A stretch of DNA of 64,000 nucleotides from a virus. Positions 6,635-29,508 of the stretch are shown piece after piece. The stretch lies in IMG/VR virus record IMGVR_UViG_3300007640_000029, positions 1 through 64,000 of that record; one strand, 5' to 3'. Every line of letters starts with the position of its first letter. The stretch's first letter is position 1. Position numbers and translations under genes: made by a program. Under the pieces are notes generated by a model. That model saw only the letters and a program-made list of their open reading frames with translations, was not told the DNA's origin and did no database searches.

Positions 6635-8029
6635 ATGTGTGGTATATTGCTAACCCAAACTGGGACTGAGGAGAATCTGAATACAATAAAGCATAGAGGT
6701 ATAGAAAGTAAAACCCTAGAGCTGAATGGATGGTATTTGTGTCATCATAGACTCCCAATTCAGACTTCCGATGGTGATACTTGGGATCAACCAAAAGAAG
6801 TCTCTAGAGGCGTCTATATGATGTTCAACGGGGAGATATTTAACTACGATAAGGATAGATTTTCATCGGATACCGAGTACCTGTGTAATCTGTTTAGCCG
6901 ATACTCCGGTGGGTCCTTTGAGATGTTCTGTGCTATGTTCTTACCAGAGATTCAAACTTGGGATGGATTCTGGGCTTTGGTTATATTCGATTCTAACAGC
7001 AATGACGTAATAGCATTTACTGATCCACTGGGCAGAAAACCACTGTATTATAACAATCTGGGTGAAATCTCATCTGAAGTAAAATCACTAGTTAGTGTGA
7101 ATAGTGAGATCGACCTTACCCTCATGAGCGCTATAAGAAAGTGGGGATACAATACGGATAATCGGACCTCATACTCAGAGGTCAAGAGATTTTTACCTAA
7201 TAATATCTACAGCTTCAATTTGGCAAGTCCCGAATTTAAGAATGTCTACTCTAATTATTTCAAGGGATTCGAACATCCAATATATGAGCTCGAGGGATCT
7301 AGCTACGAAGATCATATGGAATGGCTTTGGAGCAAGATGTTTGAATCTGTTGAAAATAGGCTAATATCCAAGGATTACCCTATTTCTCTACTTGTTTCGG
7401 GTGGACTGGATTCATCCATCATTGCTGCTATACTTAAGGAAACTGAATCTGATGTCCGGTGGTTTAGTATAGAGAATAATGAAAGCGAGTACGTTAAAAT
7501 TCTTGCCAGCCATTTGGGAGCTGAGGTTTCATTCTTGGATTATTCTATGGACAGCCACATGAACTCTGAGATATATCGAAAGTGGAATGAAAGTCCGATA
7601 GATCTAGGTTCAGTAATTCCACAATACCACTTATTTGATGCTGTTAAAAAATTTGGTGGGTATAGGATAGTTCTAAGCGGGGATGGGGCCGATGAGCTCT
7701 TTGGAGGATATAAGAGAATTCATGAGTATGATTCTCAGAGATCCGATATTTTCGATGAGCTTAGCTATTATCATCTCCCAAGGCTGGATAAAATGTCTAT
7801 GGCTCATACCCTGGAGCTCAGAAGTCCATTTCTAAATTTGGATATAGTCAGGTTTGCATTATCCATTCCTAAAGAGTGGAGAACGGATAAGAAGATATTG
7901 AAAGATACCTTCGGTCCTCTCCTACCTGAAGCTATTTTAAATAGGGATAAAGCTCCACTAAAAAATCCTCAGATAAAGAAGGATAAGATAGCATATCGAC
8001 ATGGAGCAGTGGATCTGTTTATGGGATAA
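6635..8029 (+). CDS. Asparagine synthase (glutamine-hydrolysing)-like amidotransferase
   Basis: 464 aa with both domains of AsnB. Cys2 follows the initiator Met (MCGI), so the mature protein would expose the class II glutaminase nucleophile. MMFNGEIFNY and DPLGRKPLYY are the expected glutaminase motifs. The synthetase domain has SGGLDSS (residues 255-261, PP-loop), SGDGADELFGGY (348-359) and DKMSMAHTLELRSPFL. Known members transfer glutamine-derived ammonia to an AMP-activated carboxylate. It is somewhat shorter than E. coli AsnB (about 550 aa), mainly at the C-terminus. Next to glycosyltransferases it may amidate a sugar acid or a virion component rather than make free Asn; that target is inferred. 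Confidence 0.9.
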   Translation: MCGILLTQTGTEENLNTIKHRGIESKTLELNGWYLCHHRLPIQTSDGDTWDQPKEVSRGVYMMFNGEIFNYDKDRFSSDTEYLCNLFSRYSGGSFEMFCAMFLPEIQTWDGFWALVIFDSNSNDVIAFTDPLGRKPLYYNNLGEISSEVKSLVSVNSEIDLTLMSAIRKWGYNTDNRTSYSEVKRFLPNNIYSFNLASPEFKNVYSNYFKGFEHPIYELEGSSYEDHMEWLWSKMFESVENRLISKDYPISLLVSGGLDSSIIAAILKETESDVRWFSIENNESEYVKILASHLGAEVSFLDYSMDSHMNSEIYRKWNESPIDLGSVIPQYHLFDAVKKFGGYRIVLSGDGADELFGGYKRIHEYDSQRSDIFDELSYYHLPRLDKMSMAHTLELRSPFLNLDIVRFALSIPKEWRTDKKILKDTFGPLLPEAILNRDKAPLKNPQIKKDKIAYRHGAVDLFMG

Positions 8030-18119: not shown

Positions 18120-20555
18120 ATGGCAACTGACAAAAACAGAAATTTATTCCTGAAAGGATTTAAGCTATCTAATTCAGGCGGCAACGAGGATCCTACCTAT
18201 CTGGGGTTTAAGATTATGTTTGACTTCGGATCTTTGCCAATAAATCCGGAGTATGGATGGGCGCCAAGTCCATTGCTTAAAAGGGACAACTACACTAACG
18301 AGAATTCAGGTATGGCTAACATACAGGATTCTTTTACTGGACAACCTCAGTACATAGCATCAAATCCGGAGGTTGCATATTATTCTACTTACAATTATCT
18401 TCTTCAGAGAGATGCAGGGTTTGCAGATAATAATCAGAAGAAAAGAGCAAACGCTATATTGCAGTTTCAGAAGCTGCTTAAGGATATAAATACAAATTCA
18501 CCGTGGTTTTTCCAATCTATAGAAGGACTAGATCAGCTCTCCCTAATTAGCAGAAATGGATTCCAGCCATCCAACGAGCTTGACGGTTTTGATACCCAAA
18601 GAACTGGAGATAAGGTTCTAACATTTAATACTTTAGAATCACTAAATCTCCGGATATCTGCTCTAGCCGACCTTTATAATCAGGCTACGTTTGATTTTGA
18701 AAATATGAGGTGGCTCGTACCGAGGAATCTCAGAAAGTTCACGATGTGGATATTCGTTACAGAGATAAGAAACTTCTTCAAGACGAGCAGACTCACTGCA
18801 TCTAGTACTGCTCTAACTGCTCTCAACGACCTGTCTGGACTTATCAATTCCAACACAAATCCAGGTGGCAGCATTATATCCAGCTTTGGTGATCTTGCGG
18901 GTGGAGGATTCGATGCCTCTGCAGGTTCTGATAGTGGAGGAGGAGGCGGAGCATTTTCCAGCTTTGTTGGTAACGTCTTAGACCAAAGTGGCTTATCCAA
19001 TGACTTTGCAGCTTTTACAAACCAATCGGACCAGAGTGGGATCAAGCCTGTAAAAATTTACGAGTGCCAGCAGTGTGAGTTTGACTTTAGCGAAAGCGTC
19101 CCATATAAAAGCACAATAGACATGGGATCTAGTTCAGCTGATCCCGAAACTAACTCTTTCAAAGTTCATGTTGGTAAAGTTAGAGTTAAAAGTCAGTATC
19201 CCAATATAAGGGCGGATAAAAAACCACTGATTCTTGCTGATTCATATGATCAGAATTCATCTTCGCTGGAAGAACTTGGAGATTCAGCTTTAAGCCTGGA
19301 AAATTTACTAGGACTTGGTGGACAGCTATTAACTAATGCAGTTTCAAACGTGGTAACCGACCTGGTAAACGAAGGTGTTAGTGCACTTACCTCTAATTTA
19401 AATGGCATTGATCAATCCCTTCTGGGTAACATATACTCTCTTAATCCCTCCCAAATTGGAAGACTGACCAACGAGGGCGGAAGATTCGGTTTCAATAATC
19501 TGGAAAATTTCCTAAATGGAGCAGCTGAAACCGGTATAGATAACATATTTAAGGGGAATTTGCCAAACCCACAAACTACTGGAGAAGGTGGACCACCGGA
19601 AAGGGTTTATCCGCCTATCCAGGGAGTTAAAGATGAATATCCCAACGTACCTGGATCTGCTCTTGGTGTTCCTGATAGGGTTTATCCAGAACCTACTGGG
19701 GATGCATATGCAAATGTACCTGGTACTGATCTTGGTGTTCCTGACAGAGTTTATGGGCAGCCTTCGGGTGATGCTTATCCTAACGTGCCCGGTACTGATC
19801 TTGGTGTTCCTGACAGGGTTTATTTAGATCCATCTGGTGATGCATACCCTGACGTTCCTGGTGCCGATCTTGGTGTTCCCGATAGGGTTTATGCAAATCC
19901 ATCGGGTGATGTATATCCGGATGTACCCGGTGCTGACCTGGGGGTTCCTGATAGAGTTTATCCAGACCCATCTGGCGATGTGTACCCTGACGTTCCCGGT
20001 TCTGATCTTGGTGTTCCTGATAGGGTTTATCCCGATTTTAATGACGATGTATACTCAGAAGTACCTGGCTCAGACCTTGGGGTTCCTGATCGGGTTTATC
20101 CTGATTTTAATGATGACGTATACTCGAATGTGCCAGGTTCCGATTTAGGTGTTCCTGATAGGGAGTACAACAGCTTATCCAAGGACGATGTTTATGGAGA
20201 TGTCCCCGGATCTGATCTCGGCGTCCCAGATAGAAAATATGAAGATGTTGGTGGAAGTGTCTACGAGAAGCAATATTCCAACGAGCAGCTTTCTCCGGAC
20301 AAAGTTTATGGTGAAAGTAGTCTCGTGTCTTCCAGAGGGGAACTTAGATCCCCCGAAAATAATTTTTCACAGCCCCCAGGTAAAGTGTATAGTGATAAAA
20401 AACAAAGCTATCTGGAGGGTAATATAGGTAATGTTTATCCAGTAACCAGTGGCGATTTCATAGCGGAATCCCCGCTGAATTTGGGGAACACTAAGCCACC
20501 TGACAAATACAATGTTAGTTTAGGGGGATTCAACCCAGACCAAGATGAGATTTAA
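18120..20555 (+). CDS. Baseplate-associated protein with nine 23-aa tandem repeats
   Basis: 811 aa. The first 380 residues look like a folded virion domain (KFTMWIFVTEIRNFF; a CQQC pair near residue 318; VGKVRVKSQYPNIRADKKP). Residues about 505-710 are nine tandem copies of a 23-residue unit with invariant LGVPDR and a Val-Tyr step (VPGxDLGVPDRVYxxxxGDxY). Each unit is 69 bases long, and its copies differ mostly at synonymous or neighbouring positions. The tail beyond is Pro/Tyr/Ser-rich. The repeats are probably an extended, possibly poly-proline-like or beta-solenoid spacer. Position between hub and spike genes argues for the baseplate. The repeat function is unknown. Confidence 0.6.
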   Translation: MATDKNRNLFLKGFKLSNSGGNEDPTYLGFKIMFDFGSLPINPEYGWAPSPLLKRDNYTNENSGMANIQDSFTGQPQYIASNPEVAYYSTYNYLLQRDAGFADNNQKKRANAILQFQKLLKDINTNSPWFFQSIEGLDQLSLISRNGFQPSNELDGFDTQRTGDKVLTFNTLESLNLRISALADLYNQATFDFENMRWLVPRNLRKFTMWIFVTEIRNFFKTSRLTASSTALTALNDLSGLINSNTNPGGSIISSFGDLAGGGFDASAGSDSGGGGGAFSSFVGNVLDQSGLSNDFAAFTNQSDQSGIKPVKIYECQQCEFDFSESVPYKSTIDMGSSSADPETNSFKVHVGKVRVKSQYPNIRADKKPLILADSYDQNSSSLEELGDSALSLENLLGLGGQLLTNAVSNVVTDLVNEGVSALTSNLNGIDQSLLGNIYSLNPSQIGRLTNEGGRFGFNNLENFLNGAAETGIDNIFKGNLPNPQTTGEGGPPERVYPPIQGVKDEYPNVPGSALGVPDRVYPEPTGDAYANVPGTDLGVPDRVYGQPSGDAYPNVPGTDLGVPDRVYLDPSGDAYPDVPGADLGVPDRVYANPSGDVYPDVPGADLGVPDRVYPDPSGDVYPDVPGSDLGVPDRVYPDFNDDVYSEVPGSDLGVPDRVYPDFNDDVYSNVPGSDLGVPDREYNSLSKDDVYGDVPGSDLGVPDRKYEDVGGSVYEKQYSNEQLSPDKVYGESSLVSSRGELRSPENNFSQPPGKVYSDKKQSYLEGNIGNVYPVTSGDFIAESPLNLGNTKPPDKYNVSLGGFNPDQDEI
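19603..20240 (+). repeat. Tandem 69-base repeat inside the 811-aa gene
   Basis: Nine in-frame copies, spaced 69 bases (for example GGTGTT at 19665 and 19734), encode LGVPDR each time. The last copies vary more (DFNDD in place of DPSG) and one has two extra residues (NSLSKDD). Protein conservation with nucleotide drift suggests an old, selected repeat. Confidence 0.9.
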
Positions 20556-20558
20556 CCT

Positions 20559-21227
20559 ATGGCAAATCCAAAGATATACTTAGGAGAAATAGTAGATATT
20601 GACGATCCTCAAAAATCTGGTCGTGCTAGGGTAAAAGTTTTCGGCCTTTTCGATGGGTTGGAGACGGAGGATATACCCTGGGCTAGCCAGGTTCAAAGCC
20701 CATCCTTCGGAAGAGGTGGAAAGGGTAACCTTTCAGTTCCTAGACTTGGTGCAGTAGTAGCGGTGGATTTTGATGGCCAGAACTACTACAGGATGAATTA
20801 CTATTCCGACTGGGAGACCTCACCAGATCTACTGGAAGAAATTTCGGATTCTTACGAAGGGGCTCATTCACTGATATATGATAACGATTCTGACCCCGGA
20901 CCTCTCCAGATATTTTATACAAAGAAAAAGGGGCTTAATCTTATTTTAGGTGATGCTAAAGTGCAGCTTGATACGCAGGACGGTGGCGAATTGAGGATCG
21001 TAATTGAGATGGGTGAAGATCAGATAAGAATGGAGAATAATAAAGTCATCGTTAATTGTAATAACATTGAACTCGGCGAAGCTGCAACTGAGTCTGTAAT
21101 AAAGGGGAATCTTTTCCAGACCTACTTTAATTCACATACTCACTTGGGAAATTTAGGAGCACCGACGTCTCCACCCGTTATTCCTTCCGATCCATCTCAC
21201 CTTTCCAATGTATCTAAAACTAGATAA
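20559..21227 (+). CDS. Baseplate spike protein, gp5/gpV-like without lysozyme
   Basis: 222 aa. Residues 5-85 form the N-terminal OB fold of gpV/gp5/VgrG proteins (YLGEIVDIDDPQKSGRARVK, then VPRLGAVVAVDF). Residues about 115-185 repeat short strands typical of the trimeric beta-helix (LQIFYTKKKGLNLILGD, RIVIEMGEDQIRM). The tip region has NSHTHLG (192-197), the His-x-His that holds a metal ion in spike tips. T4 gp5 carries a lysozyme domain; here there is none, as in P2 gpV. It lies next to the hub genes. The fold and role as membrane-piercing spike are well supported. Confidence 0.85.
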   Translation: MANPKIYLGEIVDIDDPQKSGRARVKVFGLFDGLETEDIPWASQVQSPSFGRGGKGNLSVPRLGAVVAVDFDGQNYYRMNYYSDWETSPDLLEEISDSYEGAHSLIYDNDSDPGPLQIFYTKKKGLNLILGDAKVQLDTQDGGELRIVIEMGEDQIRMENNKVIVNCNNIELGEAATESVIKGNLFQTYFNSHTHLGNLGAPTSPPVIPSDPSHLSNVSKTR

Positions 21228-24044: not shown

Positions 24045-25202
24045 ATGAGCGAACAAAATACTCCTATCGAGGATTTTAACTGGGATGTACCTAACAGATT
24101 CGAGGTAAACCACAAAGTCAAAACTAAAGACGGATCTAAAGTATATTGCCATGAGCCATATGCTCAGGATGTTTATGACCGCATGTTCGATTTCATGGGG
24201 GATAAAGAGTATTCCAAGGATCTTAAGGCTGGAAATTCTTATGAATGTGAGATTTTAAGAGTTAACGACGAATACTGCATAGCTCAGACTGAAGGAGGAC
24301 AATCTATCTATATTGACCTGTCAAAGGAAGGAAAGGACGCAAGAAGACTGGGAATTACCGGTTTGGACTTTTCTGTGGGTAGCAAAGTGAATGCTACAGT
24401 TAGAAACGTGATGGGTACTTATTATGGATCTGTAGTTGAAGGGTTCATCAATGACATGAAGGTCGAATTCTTCGAGCAGATACACAAGGAAAACCTTGCA
24501 TACGAGGCAAGAATAAAGTCAGTAAATAAGGGTGGATATCTGGTAGATGTACAGGGGATCGAATGTTTTCTCCCCGGTTCTTTAGCAGCTGCTAATAAGA
24601 TAACGGATTTTGATTCATATGTGGGTAAAACTATCTACGTGATGATAGACGGATATGTCCAACACAAGGGAATATTTGTAGTTTCTTATAAGAAGTATCT
24701 GGAGAAGATAATGGACCAGAAAATACAGGAATTGGATCTAACCAAAAAGTATAAGGGACATGTTACCGGTACTTCTAAATTTGGAGTTTTCGTGGAATGG
24801 GAAGACATTTACACAGGTCTGATACACAAAACTGAATTTGAAAATCAGGTAGTCGAAGGGTTTAGAGCTGGTGATGAGATAGAGTTCTATGTAAAGGAAG
24901 TCAAGGATGACAATAGACTAACCCTGACCTTTGGTGGTCCGTTGGAGAAAACTGTTAGAGTCTATGACCTTAAAAAGAATATAGACGAAGGCACAAACGA
25001 GCCAGTCAATGCAATAATTAAGCACAAGAGAAAGAATGGAGCTCTGATAGAGATTCCTGAGCTTGGCCTAATGGCAATGATACCTCAGGGAAGGATGTCA
25101 AGAGATCATAAGGGATTAAAAGCGGGAGATTCCATCGACGTAGAAATTTATGAAGTTGATGCGGTGATGGGAAAAATATTTGCTAAACCATTGGATGAGT
25201 AA
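24045..25202 (+). CDS. Ribosomal-protein-S1-like protein with four S1/OB repeats
   Basis: 385 aa. Four S1-type modules follow one another: about 63-135, 150-218, 235-297 and 310-382. The third is the clearest (YKGHVTGTSKFGVFVEWEDI, then TGLIHKTEF and GDEIEFYVKEVKDDNRLTLT), with the G-x-V-x-x-x-x-x-F-G-x-F-V signature of S1. The second has VNKGGYLVDVQGIECFLP. S1 domains bind single-stranded RNA. Bacterial S1 brings mRNA to the 30S subunit, and it matters most where Shine-Dalgarno sites are missing, as here. It may steer ribosomes to phage mRNA or act as an RNA chaperone; that is inferred. The gene has its own promoter box, and its stop overlaps the next start (ATGAGTAA). Confidence 0.8.
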   Translation: MSEQNTPIEDFNWDVPNRFEVNHKVKTKDGSKVYCHEPYAQDVYDRMFDFMGDKEYSKDLKAGNSYECEILRVNDEYCIAQTEGGQSIYIDLSKEGKDARRLGITGLDFSVGSKVNATVRNVMGTYYGSVVEGFINDMKVEFFEQIHKENLAYEARIKSVNKGGYLVDVQGIECFLPGSLAAANKITDFDSYVGKTIYVMIDGYVQHKGIFVVSYKKYLEKIMDQKIQELDLTKKYKGHVTGTSKFGVFVEWEDIYTGLIHKTEFENQVVEGFRAGDEIEFYVKEVKDDNRLTLTFGGPLEKTVRVYDLKKNIDEGTNEPVNAIIKHKRKNGALIEIPELGLMAMIPQGRMSRDHKGLKAGDSIDVEIYEVDAVMGKIFAKPLDE

Positions 25203-26592
25203 AGATAACCACTTTGATAAAGCTAGCGCTTTAAGTTCTTCCCTAATCGGATTCGAGTTTGAATTTTACTCGGAAATGGTTAGGGGAAGGATAGTGGACC
25301 AGTTGTCTAAACTTCTGGGAAAGAAAGTGGTGTTGAGTAATAAGTATCACTCTAAAGTTCCTGCCACTGCAGACTCGTTCAAGTTGGAACCTGACTATTC
25401 TGGTGGATCAAATATGAATGAGCTCATTACTGGTCCTCTCCCGTACGCAGAGGCTATCCCAATTCTGATTAAGACCTTAAGGTGGATAGACGAGAATGGA
25501 TGGACGAATGATAAATGTGCATTCCAATTTTCTGTTAGCTTCTCCAAGGAAAACCGGGAGCTTAAAAGGATGGAGGAGCTGGACAGATTGAAGTTTGTTC
25601 TCGGAATTGACGAGGGATTGATCTATTCTAAATTCGGTAACCGAACTAATAATGTTTACGCTAAATCTGTTAAAAAGATAGTACCGGTGAATAGATTTTC
25701 TATTCTGGAAAATATATCATCGATAGATCCAAGGCTTTTTAAAATACCGGAGGAGAAGTACTATGGTGCTAACTTTACCAAAGTACCCAAGGGATATATC
25801 GAAATTAGATATCTTGGTGGGAAGGACTACCAGAAGAAGATCTCTGCCATAAGGGATGTTATTGATTATGTGGTACTGTACCTGCACGACCTTTTATCTG
25901 GAAAAAGAGGATATAACCAGTCAGACTTGAAAAGACTCCAAGAAATGATGAAGGAGTATACTAAGGTGGTTAGAAGTTTTTCTGATCCTGAGTCTTTCTT
26001 CATGAATTTCCCGGATTTCCATCTATTGGTGGACCTTAAAGGATATGAGGAAAATATAAAAACTTATTTCCCCGTAATAAGAGAAAAGGTGTTCGATATA
26101 ATCGTGGAGGGTGGTGTGAAATATGCATTCTTCAATTATGATACTTCTACTGGGAGATTCCAATTAAAAAATGCCAAGTGTAAGGGATCCGGATATCTTG
26201 CTGACCTTGATCTGATAGATTGTAAAATTAGAAATTGCAAATTAGAAAACTGCAACCTCTATGGGTGTGAGGTTAAGGATTCTGAGATTATGGAGTCTCA
26301 AATATCTAATTCCAACAAGGTCTATAATAGTAAAATACACAACACTAGTGCTGACTACGGTAACCTACTAGATTCTTGCTACATCGATTGTCCCAGAAAG
26401 ATGATAAACTGCGAGGTGAATGGCGGTGTAATCAGAAAGGCTGACCTTGGAAGTAGTGCCAATGTTAGCAAAGAGACGGAGGAAGTAAAGGGATTCAGTG
26501 ATATAAGACAAAGTAGATTTATAACTGACTCCAGGCTTAAGAACCTAAATGATCCTATTCGCAGGATAATATTTAAAAATCAGAATTATTGA
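25195..26592 (+). CDS. Amidoligase-like enzyme fused to pentapeptide repeats
   Basis: 465 aa from ATG 25195 (8-base overlap with the previous stop; a Met five codons upstream is possible). Residues 19-24 GFEFEF, 76-82 ELITGPL and 203-209 EIRYLGG are the three landmark motifs of the putative amidoligase/glutamate-cysteine-ligase-like fold (G-x-E-x-E, E-x-x-x-x-P-L, EFR). Residues about 323-420 form a right-handed helix of five-residue steps, with Cys at 343, 348, 353 and 358 (DCKIRNCKLENCNLYGC). This family makes amide bonds between a carboxylate and an amine using ATP. The substrate is unknown. The repeat domain may bind a partner or a nucleic-acid-like surface. Confidence 0.65.
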   Translation: MSKDNHFDKASALSSSLIGFEFEFYSEMVRGRIVDQLSKLLGKKVVLSNKYHSKVPATADSFKLEPDYSGGSNMNELITGPLPYAEAIPILIKTLRWIDENGWTNDKCAFQFSVSFSKENRELKRMEELDRLKFVLGIDEGLIYSKFGNRTNNVYAKSVKKIVPVNRFSILENISSIDPRLFKIPEEKYYGANFTKVPKGYIEIRYLGGKDYQKKISAIRDVIDYVVLYLHDLLSGKRGYNQSDLKRLQEMMKEYTKVVRSFSDPESFFMNFPDFHLLVDLKGYEENIKTYFPVIREKVFDIIVEGGVKYAFFNYDTSTGRFQLKNAKCKGSGYLADLDLIDCKIRNCKLENCNLYGCEVKDSEIMESQISNSNKVYNSKIHNTSADYGNLLDSCYIDCPRKMINCEVNGGVIRKADLGSSANVSKETEEVKGFSDIRQSRFITDSRLKNLNDPIRRIIFKNQNY

Positions 26593-26593
26593 G

Positions 26594-27370
26594 ATGACTC
26601 TAGAGGAATTAGTACAGGAAATCAAGGATGACTTATCAGCAAGCTGCTCTTTACCCTATAATCTAAATGACGACGAGATTCATAGGATTATTAGAAGGGC
26701 ACGTGATTACATGTATGACAATTACCAATATGCTGTGGAGGATAGGGTCTTTATACTGGCTAACAATCTTTTTGCAAATCCTAGCTTTAGAAATACGAGA
26801 CAGATACAGCTTCCTCCCTCTATCGTGACTGTGTACGACGTGAGGGAAGTTAATGGAATGGGTATATCGGGAACTCCTGATCGTGACTTTGGTGATTCCA
26901 AACTCCTGGGATCTGAACTTCTGTTATCTCCGTTCACCGGGGATAACCTGGTTTATAGAACTGTAATGTATTCTTACTTTGACCTGGCGCAGGCATATCT
27001 TCTGCCAACTTACGCTTTTAAATGGAATAAGAATACCAAGAAACTTACCATTCTCGGTAGAGATCCTAATAGGTCTGGTATGTCAGGGGTTGGAACAGGA
27101 TACGACCAAAACGGTATGGACGTTGCAGTCAGGTGCTTTGTTGCTATAGACGACGATGATCTATATGACGACGAATTATTCATACGTTATTGCTTAGCCA
27201 AGTCCAAAATAAGTCTATCTAGAGTGCTTAGTGCTTTCAACTATAACCTTCCTGGTGGTGTTAGTGTAAACACCTCAGAGCTTAGAAGTGACGGTGAGAA
27301 AGAGCTCCAAGAAGTGATGGATATGATCAACGGAGAGAACACTCCTTCCTATTTCTTACAGTGGAATTAA
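26594..27370 (+). CDS. Neck/connector-type structural protein
   Basis: 258 aa. A helical N-terminus (LEELVQEIKDDLSASCSL, then EIHRIIRRARDYMYDNY) is followed by a beta domain. Near the C-terminus a helical block, YDDELFIRYCLAKSKISLSR plus ELRSDGEKELQEVMDMI, recalls virion connector proteins of large myoviruses, where a region containing LPGG and GEKELQE is conserved. It starts one base after the amidoligase stop and stands directly before the gp25-like gene. A role at the head-tail junction or in the wedge is likely; the T4 equivalent is uncertain. Confidence 0.5.
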   Translation: MTLEELVQEIKDDLSASCSLPYNLNDDEIHRIIRRARDYMYDNYQYAVEDRVFILANNLFANPSFRNTRQIQLPPSIVTVYDVREVNGMGISGTPDRDFGDSKLLGSELLLSPFTGDNLVYRTVMYSYFDLAQAYLLPTYAFKWNKNTKKLTILGRDPNRSGMSGVGTGYDQNGMDVAVRCFVAIDDDDLYDDELFIRYCLAKSKISLSRVLSAFNYNLPGGVSVNTSELRSDGEKELQEVMDMINGENTPSYFLQWN

Positions 27371-27383: not shown

Positions 27384-27403
27384 TGGGAAAATAAATTCCC
27401 AAT
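27382..27403 (+). promoter_or_regulatory. Hairpin covering the gp25-like start codon
   Basis: ATTGGGAA (27382-27389) pairs perfectly with TTCCCAAT (27396-27403) around the loop AATAAA. A402 and T403 belong to the ATG at 27402, and T381-G404 could add a wobble pair. The start codon would be hidden unless the stem opens. Confidence 0.55.
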
Positions 27404-27773
27404 GGTTGAGATTTATAACAAAGATCCTGAAGATTTCAATTACAAGGAGAATATCCTTGAGATAACAAACCCTACGGACATATGTGTTGGGCAACTTAAA
27501 ATGATGCTCGTTACTAATCGTGGAGAAGTATTAGGTGATCCTAAATTTGGACTTAACTTAGAGGATCTGGTTTTCTCTCTGGATCTCTCTGAAAGTAGCT
27601 TAAGGGAAAGAATAAACGAGCATCTTAGGATTTATGTTCCTCTTTTTGCCCAGTTAAACGGGTATTTTGAGGTAAAGTTTTACCAGGGTACTCAGAGAGA
27701 TATTGCATATCTGGATTTCTATTTACCAGGTTTAAGTAATACCTCACCAGCGATTGCTTTGAAAGTAAGTTAA
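27402..27773 (+). CDS. Baseplate wedge subunit, gp25-like
   Basis: 123 aa, the usual size of gp25/GPW proteins. Residues 29-60 carry the family core: VGQLKMMLVTNRGEVLGDP then KFGLNLEDLVF, matching the pattern I-x-x-L-L-T-x-x-G-E-x-x-x-x-P-x-F-G. The C-terminal half has the expected helix (RERINEHLRIYVP) and strand pair. In contractile systems gp25 anchors the sheath to the wedge. The gp6-like gene follows after four bases, the same order as in many contractile phages. The start codon sits in a hairpin. Confidence 0.8.
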   Translation: MVEIYNKDPEDFNYKENILEITNPTDICVGQLKMMLVTNRGEVLGDPKFGLNLEDLVFSLDLSESSLRERINEHLRIYVPLFAQLNGYFEVKFYQGTQRDIAYLDFYLPGLSNTSPAIALKVS

Positions 27774-27777
27774 AAAG

Positions 27778-29508
27778 ATGGCAGAAAATATTTTTAAGAA
27801 GAACAACATTCTGATTGGAGGTCTACTAAACGACTCTTATCAATTCTTGCAAAGGACGTACAACCAATCCCGCAACGTTTTCACAGTTGCTTCTGCTTGG
27901 GGGCAGATATTGTTTGTGTTGGAAAACCTCTCTCAGATGATTTTGTACTTCATAGAGGATTCGATAACTGAATTAAATATACAGGAAGCAACTAGAAACT
28001 ACTCAATAAAAAGTTTAGCTAGAATCGCTGGTCATGATCCTTCAAGAGGAATGGCTGCACAAGGAGAGATTGCTTTAACGTGGAATCTTAGAGAGTCTGA
28101 TGTTGGTGGTGGAGCAGTAGTATTAAGCGGAACCCCGAGAATTCAATGTATACAAAACGGACTTCCATATTCAATATTACTCGGAGCTCCTTCCGTGAAA
28201 GTACCACTTAACCGGACAGCTTCTTTTAATTTTAAGATTGTTCAAGGATCCTTCGCTTCTAATACGTTTACAGGTACTGGTAGGGCATTACAGAGTTTTA
28301 ATCTTCCTTCGAAAGCTGGTGCTCTGATAGACCAATTTTATGTTGATGTCTATGTCAACGACAATAAATGGGAAAGGTATGAATCCCTCTATGATATACC
28401 TCTTAACAAGGAGGGATATCTAGTTAAGAGCGGTATACAGGAGGGAATAGACATCTATTTCGGTAATTCAAACTTTGGTAAGATTCCACAACAGGGAGCC
28501 ACAATAAGGGTGGAATACCTGCAGACATCTGGATTTAATGGAAATCTTCAGAGCAGGCCTGATCAGGTTCTTACGTATAAGTTTATGGATAGCGGGGAAG
28601 ATCTCTTCGGAAGTACTGTTAACCTTGATAACTATTTAAAATTGACCGGCGTACTAGATCCTTCTTTCGGATCTGATCCCGAACCTATAGAAGTTACCAG
28701 ATTGGTAGCACCTAAAACCAGTCGGGCTTTCGTGTTTGCTAATGCTGAAAATTATGAGATATACCTACAGAAATTCAATATCTTTTCTCAGATACAGGCT
28801 TTCTCAACTTTCGATGATGATTACTTGGATGATGATAACGTAGTTTATATTTTCTTGGTTCCTGATGTAACTATTAACATGACTAGCAACCAGGATTATT
28901 TCGATATTCCAGAAACTAGTTTCTTACTCACTAACTCTCAAAAGCTTTCCATCCTGAATCTCATTGAGGATTCCGGTAGAATGATAGCGACCACGGTTGT
29001 AAAAATCATACAACCTGAGATCAGTAGGTTTGTTGGAAACGTGGTTATGTCGATTTTTGAGGGCTATGATCCTGAGGTCATAAAGGACAAGGTCAGAACT
29101 TCTATTTCCGAGTATATGCTTAACAATAAGAGAAGAGATAGGATTCCTAAATCCGATATAATAGCGATACTAGAATCGATAGAGGGAATAGATTCGGTTT
29201 CCTTCTATTTCATAGGTGAACAGAATGAGAATTATCATAGAACCGTTGATAACTTACAAAATGCGAGTGCTGCTCAAAAGAACAAACAGATAGGTCTCGA
29301 CGACTTCGGTGATATTATCATAAAAAGAGGTGAGCTAGTTCTTATGAGGGGAGGATGGGAAGATAGAAACGGTGTGGAGTATCAGGAAGGAATAGTTCCT
29401 GGGAAACCTTCGGCACTAAATATCTCCATTTCTTCGGTTAATCCAAAGAATTTCCTCAATGAGCTTAATTCCGAGACTAAATCAAAGCTAATAGCTTCCA
29501 ACAGATAA
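27778..29508 (+). CDS. Baseplate wedge protein, gp6/gpJ-like
   Basis: 576 aa. The N-terminal helices (NDSYQFLQRTYNQSRNVFTV, then FIEDSITELNIQEATRNYSI) and the short R-x-A-G-x-D-P step are typical of gpJ/gp6 baseplate proteins. The beta domain at about 90-260 (IALTWNLRESDVGGGAVVLS, RVEYLQTSGFNGN) and the C-terminal arm (about 400-520, IIQPEISRFVGNVVMSIFEG) complete the family layout. Gp6 dimers hold the wedges together around the hub. The preceding gp25-like gene strengthens the call. Confidence 0.75.
   Translation: MAENIFKKNNILIGGLLNDSYQFLQRTYNQSRNVFTVASAWGQILFVLENLSQMILYFIEDSITELNIQEATRNYSIKSLARIAGHDPSRGMAAQGEIALTWNLRESDVGGGAVVLSGTPRIQCIQNGLPYSILLGAPSVKVPLNRTASFNFKIVQGSFASNTFTGTGRALQSFNLPSKAGALIDQFYVDVYVNDNKWERYESLYDIPLNKEGYLVKSGIQEGIDIYFGNSNFGKIPQQGATIRVEYLQTSGFNGNLQSRPDQVLTYKFMDSGEDLFGSTVNLDNYLKLTGVLDPSFGSDPEPIEVTRLVAPKTSRAFVFANAENYEIYLQKFNIFSQIQAFSTFDDDYLDDDNVVYIFLVPDVTINMTSNQDYFDIPETSFLLTNSQKLSILNLIEDSGRMIATTVVKIIQPEISRFVGNVVMSIFEGYDPEVIKDKVRTSISEYMLNNKRRDRIPKSDIIAILESIEGIDSVSFYFIGEQNENYHRTVDNLQNASAAQKNKQIGLDDFGDIIIKRGELVLMRGGWEDRNGVEYQEGIVPGKPSALNISISSVNPKNFLNELNSETKSKLIASNR

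Follow-up and report, generated by a model that had tools for sequence, protein, structure and literature searches.

A gene in the viral window analysed here (64,000 nucleotides, positions 1 to 64,000 of the IMG/VR record IMGVR_UViG_3300007640_000029, a 116 kb viral record that is probably itself a fragment) encodes a carboxylate-amine ligase domain fused to a C-terminal helix of pentapeptide repeats, and we predict from its sequence, with high confidence, that the product is an active amide ligase. The residues expected to handle metal, ATP and substrate do not change among 167 sequences, which makes the protein almost certainly an active enzyme. The fusion family is large and purely phage. 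A literature search, with most subscription journals outside its reach, returned nothing relevant that links amidoligases with pentapeptide repeats; the architecture therefore appears to be undescribed there, while the kind of enzyme is itself known. An initial annotation of this DNA had suggested that the gene could make a targeted amide-forming enzyme with a pentapeptide helix attached; that combination is well supported by the invariant active-site residues, the glutamine-synthetase-like fold and the constancy of the fusion.

The ligase domain and its active site

The open reading frame starts with an ATG at 25195, stops at 26592 and overlaps the upstream gene by 8 bases. The frame and its catalytic features are as follows.

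25195..26592, plus strand: amidoligase/pentapeptide-repeat fusion gene, 465 amino acids; open frame, with hundreds of phage contigs encoding relatives of full length
25195..26142, plus strand: N-terminal carboxylate-amine ligase domain (glutamine-synthetase fold), residues 1-316; AlphaFold pLDDT 89.4, Foldseek
25249..25263, plus strand: GFEFE motif, residues 19-23, putative metal/ATP site on core strand 1; G19, E21 and E23 invariant in 166/166
25387..25440, plus strand: EPDYSGG...ELITGPL, residues 65-82, with acidic D67 and E76 after or on strands 2 and 3; 167/167
25525..25533, plus strand: Q111-F-S113, in the place of the strand-4 HxN motif and altered in the window's clade (tree, alignment)
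25801..25809, plus strand: E203-I-R205 on core strand 6; E203 and R205 invariant in 167/167

None of the families in PHROG, PADLOC or NCBIfam describes the window protein, and a plasmid search with it gave no match. Against the nearest relative, dN was 0.02-0.04 in both the ligase and the repeat domains and dS was saturated; a dN/dS ratio is therefore not given. The amidoligase landmarks GxExE, ExxxxPL and EIR, noticed in the initial annotation, are present as G19-F-E21-F-E23, E76-L-I-T-G-P-L82 and E203-I-R205, and both profile and fold agree with them. Pfam Amidoligase_2 (PF12224) scored the window protein at E 3e-4 and 21.1 bits, just under the curated cut-off of 22, which some close relatives exceed at 26.1 and 24.8 bits; 18 of 43 relatives matched at E below 0.01 (best E 5.5e-7).

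AlphaFold was run on a 72-sequence alignment and gave a full-length model (pLDDT 85, pTM 0.79) made up of a mixed alpha/beta domain, a helical stretch, a short-strand helix at about 328-418 and a disordered end (residues 438-465). Structure prediction, suggested earlier as a check, thus modelled both a ligase and a right-handed helix, with glutamate-cysteine ligase and QnrB1 among the Foldseek matches. Modelled alone, the ligase domain reached pLDDT 89, and its first 15 Foldseek matches were all glutamine synthetase (E 1.1e-5 to 4e-4, probability 0.95-1.00; best E 1.1e-5 at probability 1.00). Kinship to solved glutamine synthetases is distant, as TM-scores to them were low, at ~0.3 (about 0.33). 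Searched against solved structures, the full-length model found glutamine synthetases at a best E of 5.7e-5 and E. coli glutamate-cysteine ligase at E 0.011; against viral models it found many named phage amidoligases (E 6e-13 to 1e-9), over the ligase part only. When the profile was compared directly with that of E. coli glutamate-cysteine ligase (GshA), no match emerged, and a sequence search of solved structures returned pentapeptide and similar repeat proteins only, leaving the ligase part unmatched.

The closest described enzymes are those of Amidoligase_2, including that of Agrobacterium phage Atu_ph07, which have the same catalytic domain and motif order, with significant profile and structure matches. 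Aligned to the Atu_ph07 protein by hhalign (97.9%, E 6e-13), the window protein places D67, E76, Q/H111, E203 and R205 in register; unlike the fusion, the Atu_ph07 enzyme has no pentapeptide match. The uncharacterised viral protein A0A6J5PQ40 is the same fusion and matches the model from end to end (TM 0.82-0.87, E 6.7e-40).

For the superfamily of glutamine synthetase, glutamate-cysteine ligase and PafA, the published motifs (PMC2588565) are GhExE or Ex[EH] in core strand 1, [HD]x[NH] in strand 4 and Ex[RK]x2D in strand 6; strands 2 and 3 bear acidic residues, and two arginines, on strand 5 and in its preceding loop, are a further feature. The fusion shares the GhExE motif and the strand-2 and strand-3 acidic residues. 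At strand 4 two clades have HxN and the window's clade has QxS, and at strand 6 the Glu and Arg agree with the motif while the Asp comes later; global similarity is low. In the model, GFEFE lies on the strand at 16-25, D67 just after that at 61-66 and E76 on that at 74-78. Among 167 distinct full-length sequences, some pairs of which are less than 30% identical, E21, E23, D67, E76, E203 and R205 show zero substitutions where present; S69-G70-G71, T79 and G80 are likewise invariant (167/167), and R150 is invariant across the family alignment. The strand-6 Asp stands at 211 in 149 of the 167, six residues after the Arg as against three in the published motif.

Strand 4 is where the family divides, with HxN in 86/167 and QxS, QxG or QxN in 81/167. 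PafA, from a family of active protein ligases, has the strand-4 form [HQ]x[NH], so Gln is tolerated there (PMC2588565); the QxS of the window's clade agrees with this form at the first position only. Sequences with Gln111 retain all other catalytic residues, which suggests that an active site changed, rather than dead, is the better reading.

The repeat helix and tail

Downstream of the ligase domain the protein continues as follows.

26170..26466, plus strand: C-terminal right-handed pentapeptide-repeat helix, residues 326-424, about five coils; AlphaFold, Foldseek, periodicity
26221..26268, plus strand: Cys343, 348, 353, 358 ladder, present in the window; 343 and 353 alone conserved
26467..26589, plus strand: disordered C-terminal tail, residues 425-465, ending N-Y; clade-conserved

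Pentapeptide repeats had been recognised here in the initial annotation, and period-5 statistics, the AlphaFold helix and Foldseek matches to pentapeptide proteins all support that assignment. The coils were modelled at pLDDT ~86-97, with AlbG (E 1.1e-3), QnrB1 and Rfr23 among the structural matches and a profile match to pentapeptide proteins at E ~0.001. Pentapeptide_4 (PF13599) was found in 18/43 relatives (E below 0.01, best E 5.4e-6); the window protein itself is a weak match, at 16.3 bits against a cut-off of 38. A period-5 shuffle test gave p = 0.007 for the C-terminal part and 0.91 for the N-terminal part, and hydropathy autocorrelation over the family was 0.53, 0.32 and 0.31 at lags 5, 10 and 15. 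The four-Cys ladder, also noted earlier, exists in the window but is not conserved as a ladder: of the 72 sequences compared, almost all carry Cys at 343 and 353, 41 carry it at 358 and just 2 at 348, where Gly prevails.

The helix diverges faster than the ligase domain (48% versus 72% mean identity to the window within clade I, defined below). Gly411 and Arg414 in its cap are essentially invariant, which suggests a functional role for the helix. AlbG, MfpA and QnrB1 have a similar period-5 right-handed helix; that of the window differs from theirs in having about five coils, in being nearly neutral and in being attached to an enzyme. Its net charge is −1 (mean −2 over the 72 sequences), and it is not the strongly acidic DNA-like rod of the gyrase protectors Qnr and MfpA. 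DNA mimicry, raised in the initial annotation, was rejected because the helix is short and almost uncharged; a docking or oligomerising surface fits better. Beyond it, the tail falls below pLDDT 50 from residue 438, with 60% mean identity within clade I. In clade I the tail ends in Asn-Tyr or Asn-Trp; clade III conserves a tail unlike it, and clade II has almost none.

Distribution and genomic setting

The suggestion that the same fusion might occur in other phages proved correct on a large scale: at least 459 IMG/VR stretches match it, as do Mahaphage genomes, and ligase and pentapeptide helix are kept together in every relative examined. In phage records, tblastn found only six, all uncultured (634,780, 636,363, 642,428, 735,411 (twice) and 462,018 bases). 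Four fusion-bearing records fit the 634, 636, 642 and 735 kb Mahaphage genomes, which a 2020 survey describes as its four largest complete phage genomes, in the Mahaphage clade with predicted Bacteroidetes hosts (PMC7162821). A search of 84,980 species genomes gave a sole match, on a 5.9 kb contig of a Deltaproteobacteria bin whose other genes are phage-like. By its baseplate gp6-like protein, the window phage lies nearest to LR756500, the Lak phages and the Mahaphages.

A maximum-likelihood tree resolved three clades: I (the window; Gln111), II (the 462 kb record and allies; His111) and III (Mahaphages; His111). One sequence, L139, groups with the Gln111 sequences by a long branch, and a single change on the tree suffices to explain Gln111 versus His111. 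The replacement of HxN by QxS across a whole clade, in an otherwise invariant active site, is a natural experiment in metal-site evolution.

The gene sits among particle genes in the window:

20559..21227, plus strand: gp5-like baseplate hub (spike OB) protein; phrog_430 4.7e-14
24045..25202, plus strand: multi-S1-domain RNA-binding-like protein, overlapping the fusion gene from upstream; PF00575 8.7e-20
26594..27370, plus strand: head-tail adaptor (neck) protein, directly downstream of the fusion gene; phrog_211 2.1e-9
27402..27773, plus strand: gp25-like baseplate wedge protein; weak scores (PF04965 E 0.0076, phrog_261 E 0.027), conserved position
27778..29508, plus strand: gp6-like baseplate wedge protein; phrog_219 4e-31

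Clade I keeps the order baseplate hub, S1-domain protein, fusion, head-tail adaptor, gp25-like and gp6-like. The adaptor lies at most 100 bases away in 95/96 clade I and 5/7 clade II loci that hold it, and an S1 gene immediately precedes the fusion in 132/142 clade I loci (some contigs counted twice) and 73/75 clade II loci. Loci were also fetched through the adaptor gene, to avoid selecting by the fusion itself; many of the clade I contigs in this set overlap the earlier one, and most of its clade II loci are new. The fusion was directly upstream in 143 of the 143 such loci with enough upstream sequence, truncated in a few of these by the contig end. In clade III the fusion gene is beside neither the adaptor nor the S1 gene, the latter being absent alongside in 35 informative loci. 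The adaptor occurs without any relative of the fusion protein in Lak-A1 and Lak-B1 (stops read through) and in the Bacteroidetes phages pT24 and MaF61; the fusion is therefore dispensable for virion assembly in itself. The protein is fixed within its lineages, yet is no general particle component. The T4-type late motif TATAAATA, looked for as promoter or expression evidence for the gene, occurred 9 times against 7.9 expected, no commoner than chance.

One gene at a distance follows the strand-4 variant:

6635..8029, plus strand: asparagine-synthase-like glutamine amidotransferase; PF00733 4.9e-41, GATase_7 1.4e-10

In the window, as in the long contigs of the Gln111 clade, some 17 kb separate it from the ligase gene downstream. 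We found it in 16 of 17 Gln111 records, the seventeenth being uninformative because that contig (L072) ends ~5 kb upstream of the ligase gene, and in 0 of 18 His111 records from both His111 clades, several of them fragments. All Gln111 records form one clade, so the pattern amounts to one event in evolution and speaks only weakly for functional coupling. In one clade I contig the asparagine-synthase-like gene (G021:C1:61494-62237) appears to have an in-frame TAA.

Proposed function and alternatives

We lean towards a role tied to particle assembly. The fuller account, in which a late ATP-dependent ligase modifies a phage protein during virion assembly, is offered tentatively and falls somewhat short of probable. 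The product would be a carboxylate-amine ligase with the glutamine synthetase/glutamate-cysteine ligase fold, dependent on ATP and Mg and made together with the particle genes. A carboxylate would be activated as an acyl phosphate among E21, E23, D67, E76, Q111, E203 and R205 (strands 1, 2, 3, 4 and 6) and then joined to an amine, while the C-terminal helix would serve as a rigid docking or oligomerising platform holding the substrate or a partner. Most likely, an amino acid, a peptide or a cross-link would thereby be added to a phage protein in virion assembly. We infer all three elements: an active ligase, late expression and a phage-protein target. The initial annotation had left the target as a host or virion protein; gene position in two of the three clades favours the phage or virion side, and a phage protein is the best single guess for the substrate, though a host protein may be the target instead. 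A more specific version, in which huge phages use a virion-dedicated ligase to tag or cross-link one of their particle proteins by new amide bonds, the helix acts as docking platform and the Gln-for-His site of the window's clade is coupled to the linked asparagine-synthase-like enzyme, seems rather unlikely.

Amidoligases of small phages, encoded beside glutamine amidotransferases, ATP-grasp enzymes and cyclotransferases, have been proposed to alter peptidoglycan (PMC5498523, PMC3890496), and an active ligase that similarly modifies peptidoglycan or the host surface would accord with the glutamine-dependent asparagine-synthase-like gene 17 kb away. That amidotransferase is missing from both other clades, however, and no second amidoligase, ATP-grasp, glutamine amidotransferase or cyclotransferase adjoins the fusion gene, which stands in a particle cluster rather than an early cassette. 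COOH-NH2_lig (PF14395) was unmatched in 15 records, with the control likewise silent, and the cyclotransferase (PF06094) was not found in the window's clade. We regard this reading as unlikely. The same want of a cyclotransferase match in the window's clade bears on a ligase making glutathione-like or gamma-glutamyl small molecules, an idea that draws on the fold shared with glutamate-cysteine ligase and on gamma-glutamylcyclotransferase genes in three Mahaphage genomes; a constant pentapeptide platform and a place in the particle cluster would be odd for such an enzyme, and we consider it distinctly improbable.

RimK, an unrelated amide ligase, modifies a ribosomal protein, and by analogy the fusion could act on a protein involved in translation or RNA binding, of either host or phage, with the neighbouring S1-domain protein as partner or substrate. 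Two clades have the S1 gene as a fixed neighbour upstream, and in the window the two genes overlap; the absence of an S1 gene from beside the fusion in the informative Mahaphage-clade loci, and the fact that adjacency alone says little, make this quite unlikely. Cluster position and the loss of His-x-Asn in the window's clade would also suit a former enzyme since recruited to the neck or baseplate in a structural or assembly role. The remaining catalytic residues are nonetheless invariant in 167 sequences, every Gln111 sequence included, and PafA, which is active, also permits Gln at the strand-4 position (PMC2588565), so that we judge such a protein highly improbable.

Modification of a phage protein, the reading we prefer, has a parallel, suggestive only, in two other jumbo phages with amidoligase-like genes beside head genes: the Atu_ph07 amidoligase is two genes from the portal gene, and SCTP-2 offers a further instance. 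Phages that rank among the largest known thus retain an enzyme of predictable chemistry, although its target cannot be predicted in the same way. If particle proteins are modified, an enzyme would be making covalent changes as very large phage heads and tails are assembled, which would offer a handle on what huge phages do differently.

Several other features were noticed. In Salicola phage SCTP-2, gp125 and gp124 (L147 6924-10684) are tandem distant amidoligase relatives close to a head maturation protease. A tail-cluster protein at 18120-20555 of the window carries, towards its C-terminus, a long run of imperfect repeats of GVPDRVYPDPSGDxYPDVPGSDL. Finally, many proteins have N-termini that resemble T4-type head-targeting sequences (MK-x-L-x-x-F/Y-E and similar, several followed by NE), at 544, 1646, 2532, 8072 and 61383 in the window, 3964 and 4416 in L139 and 11377 in L003, suggesting a set of internal head proteins.
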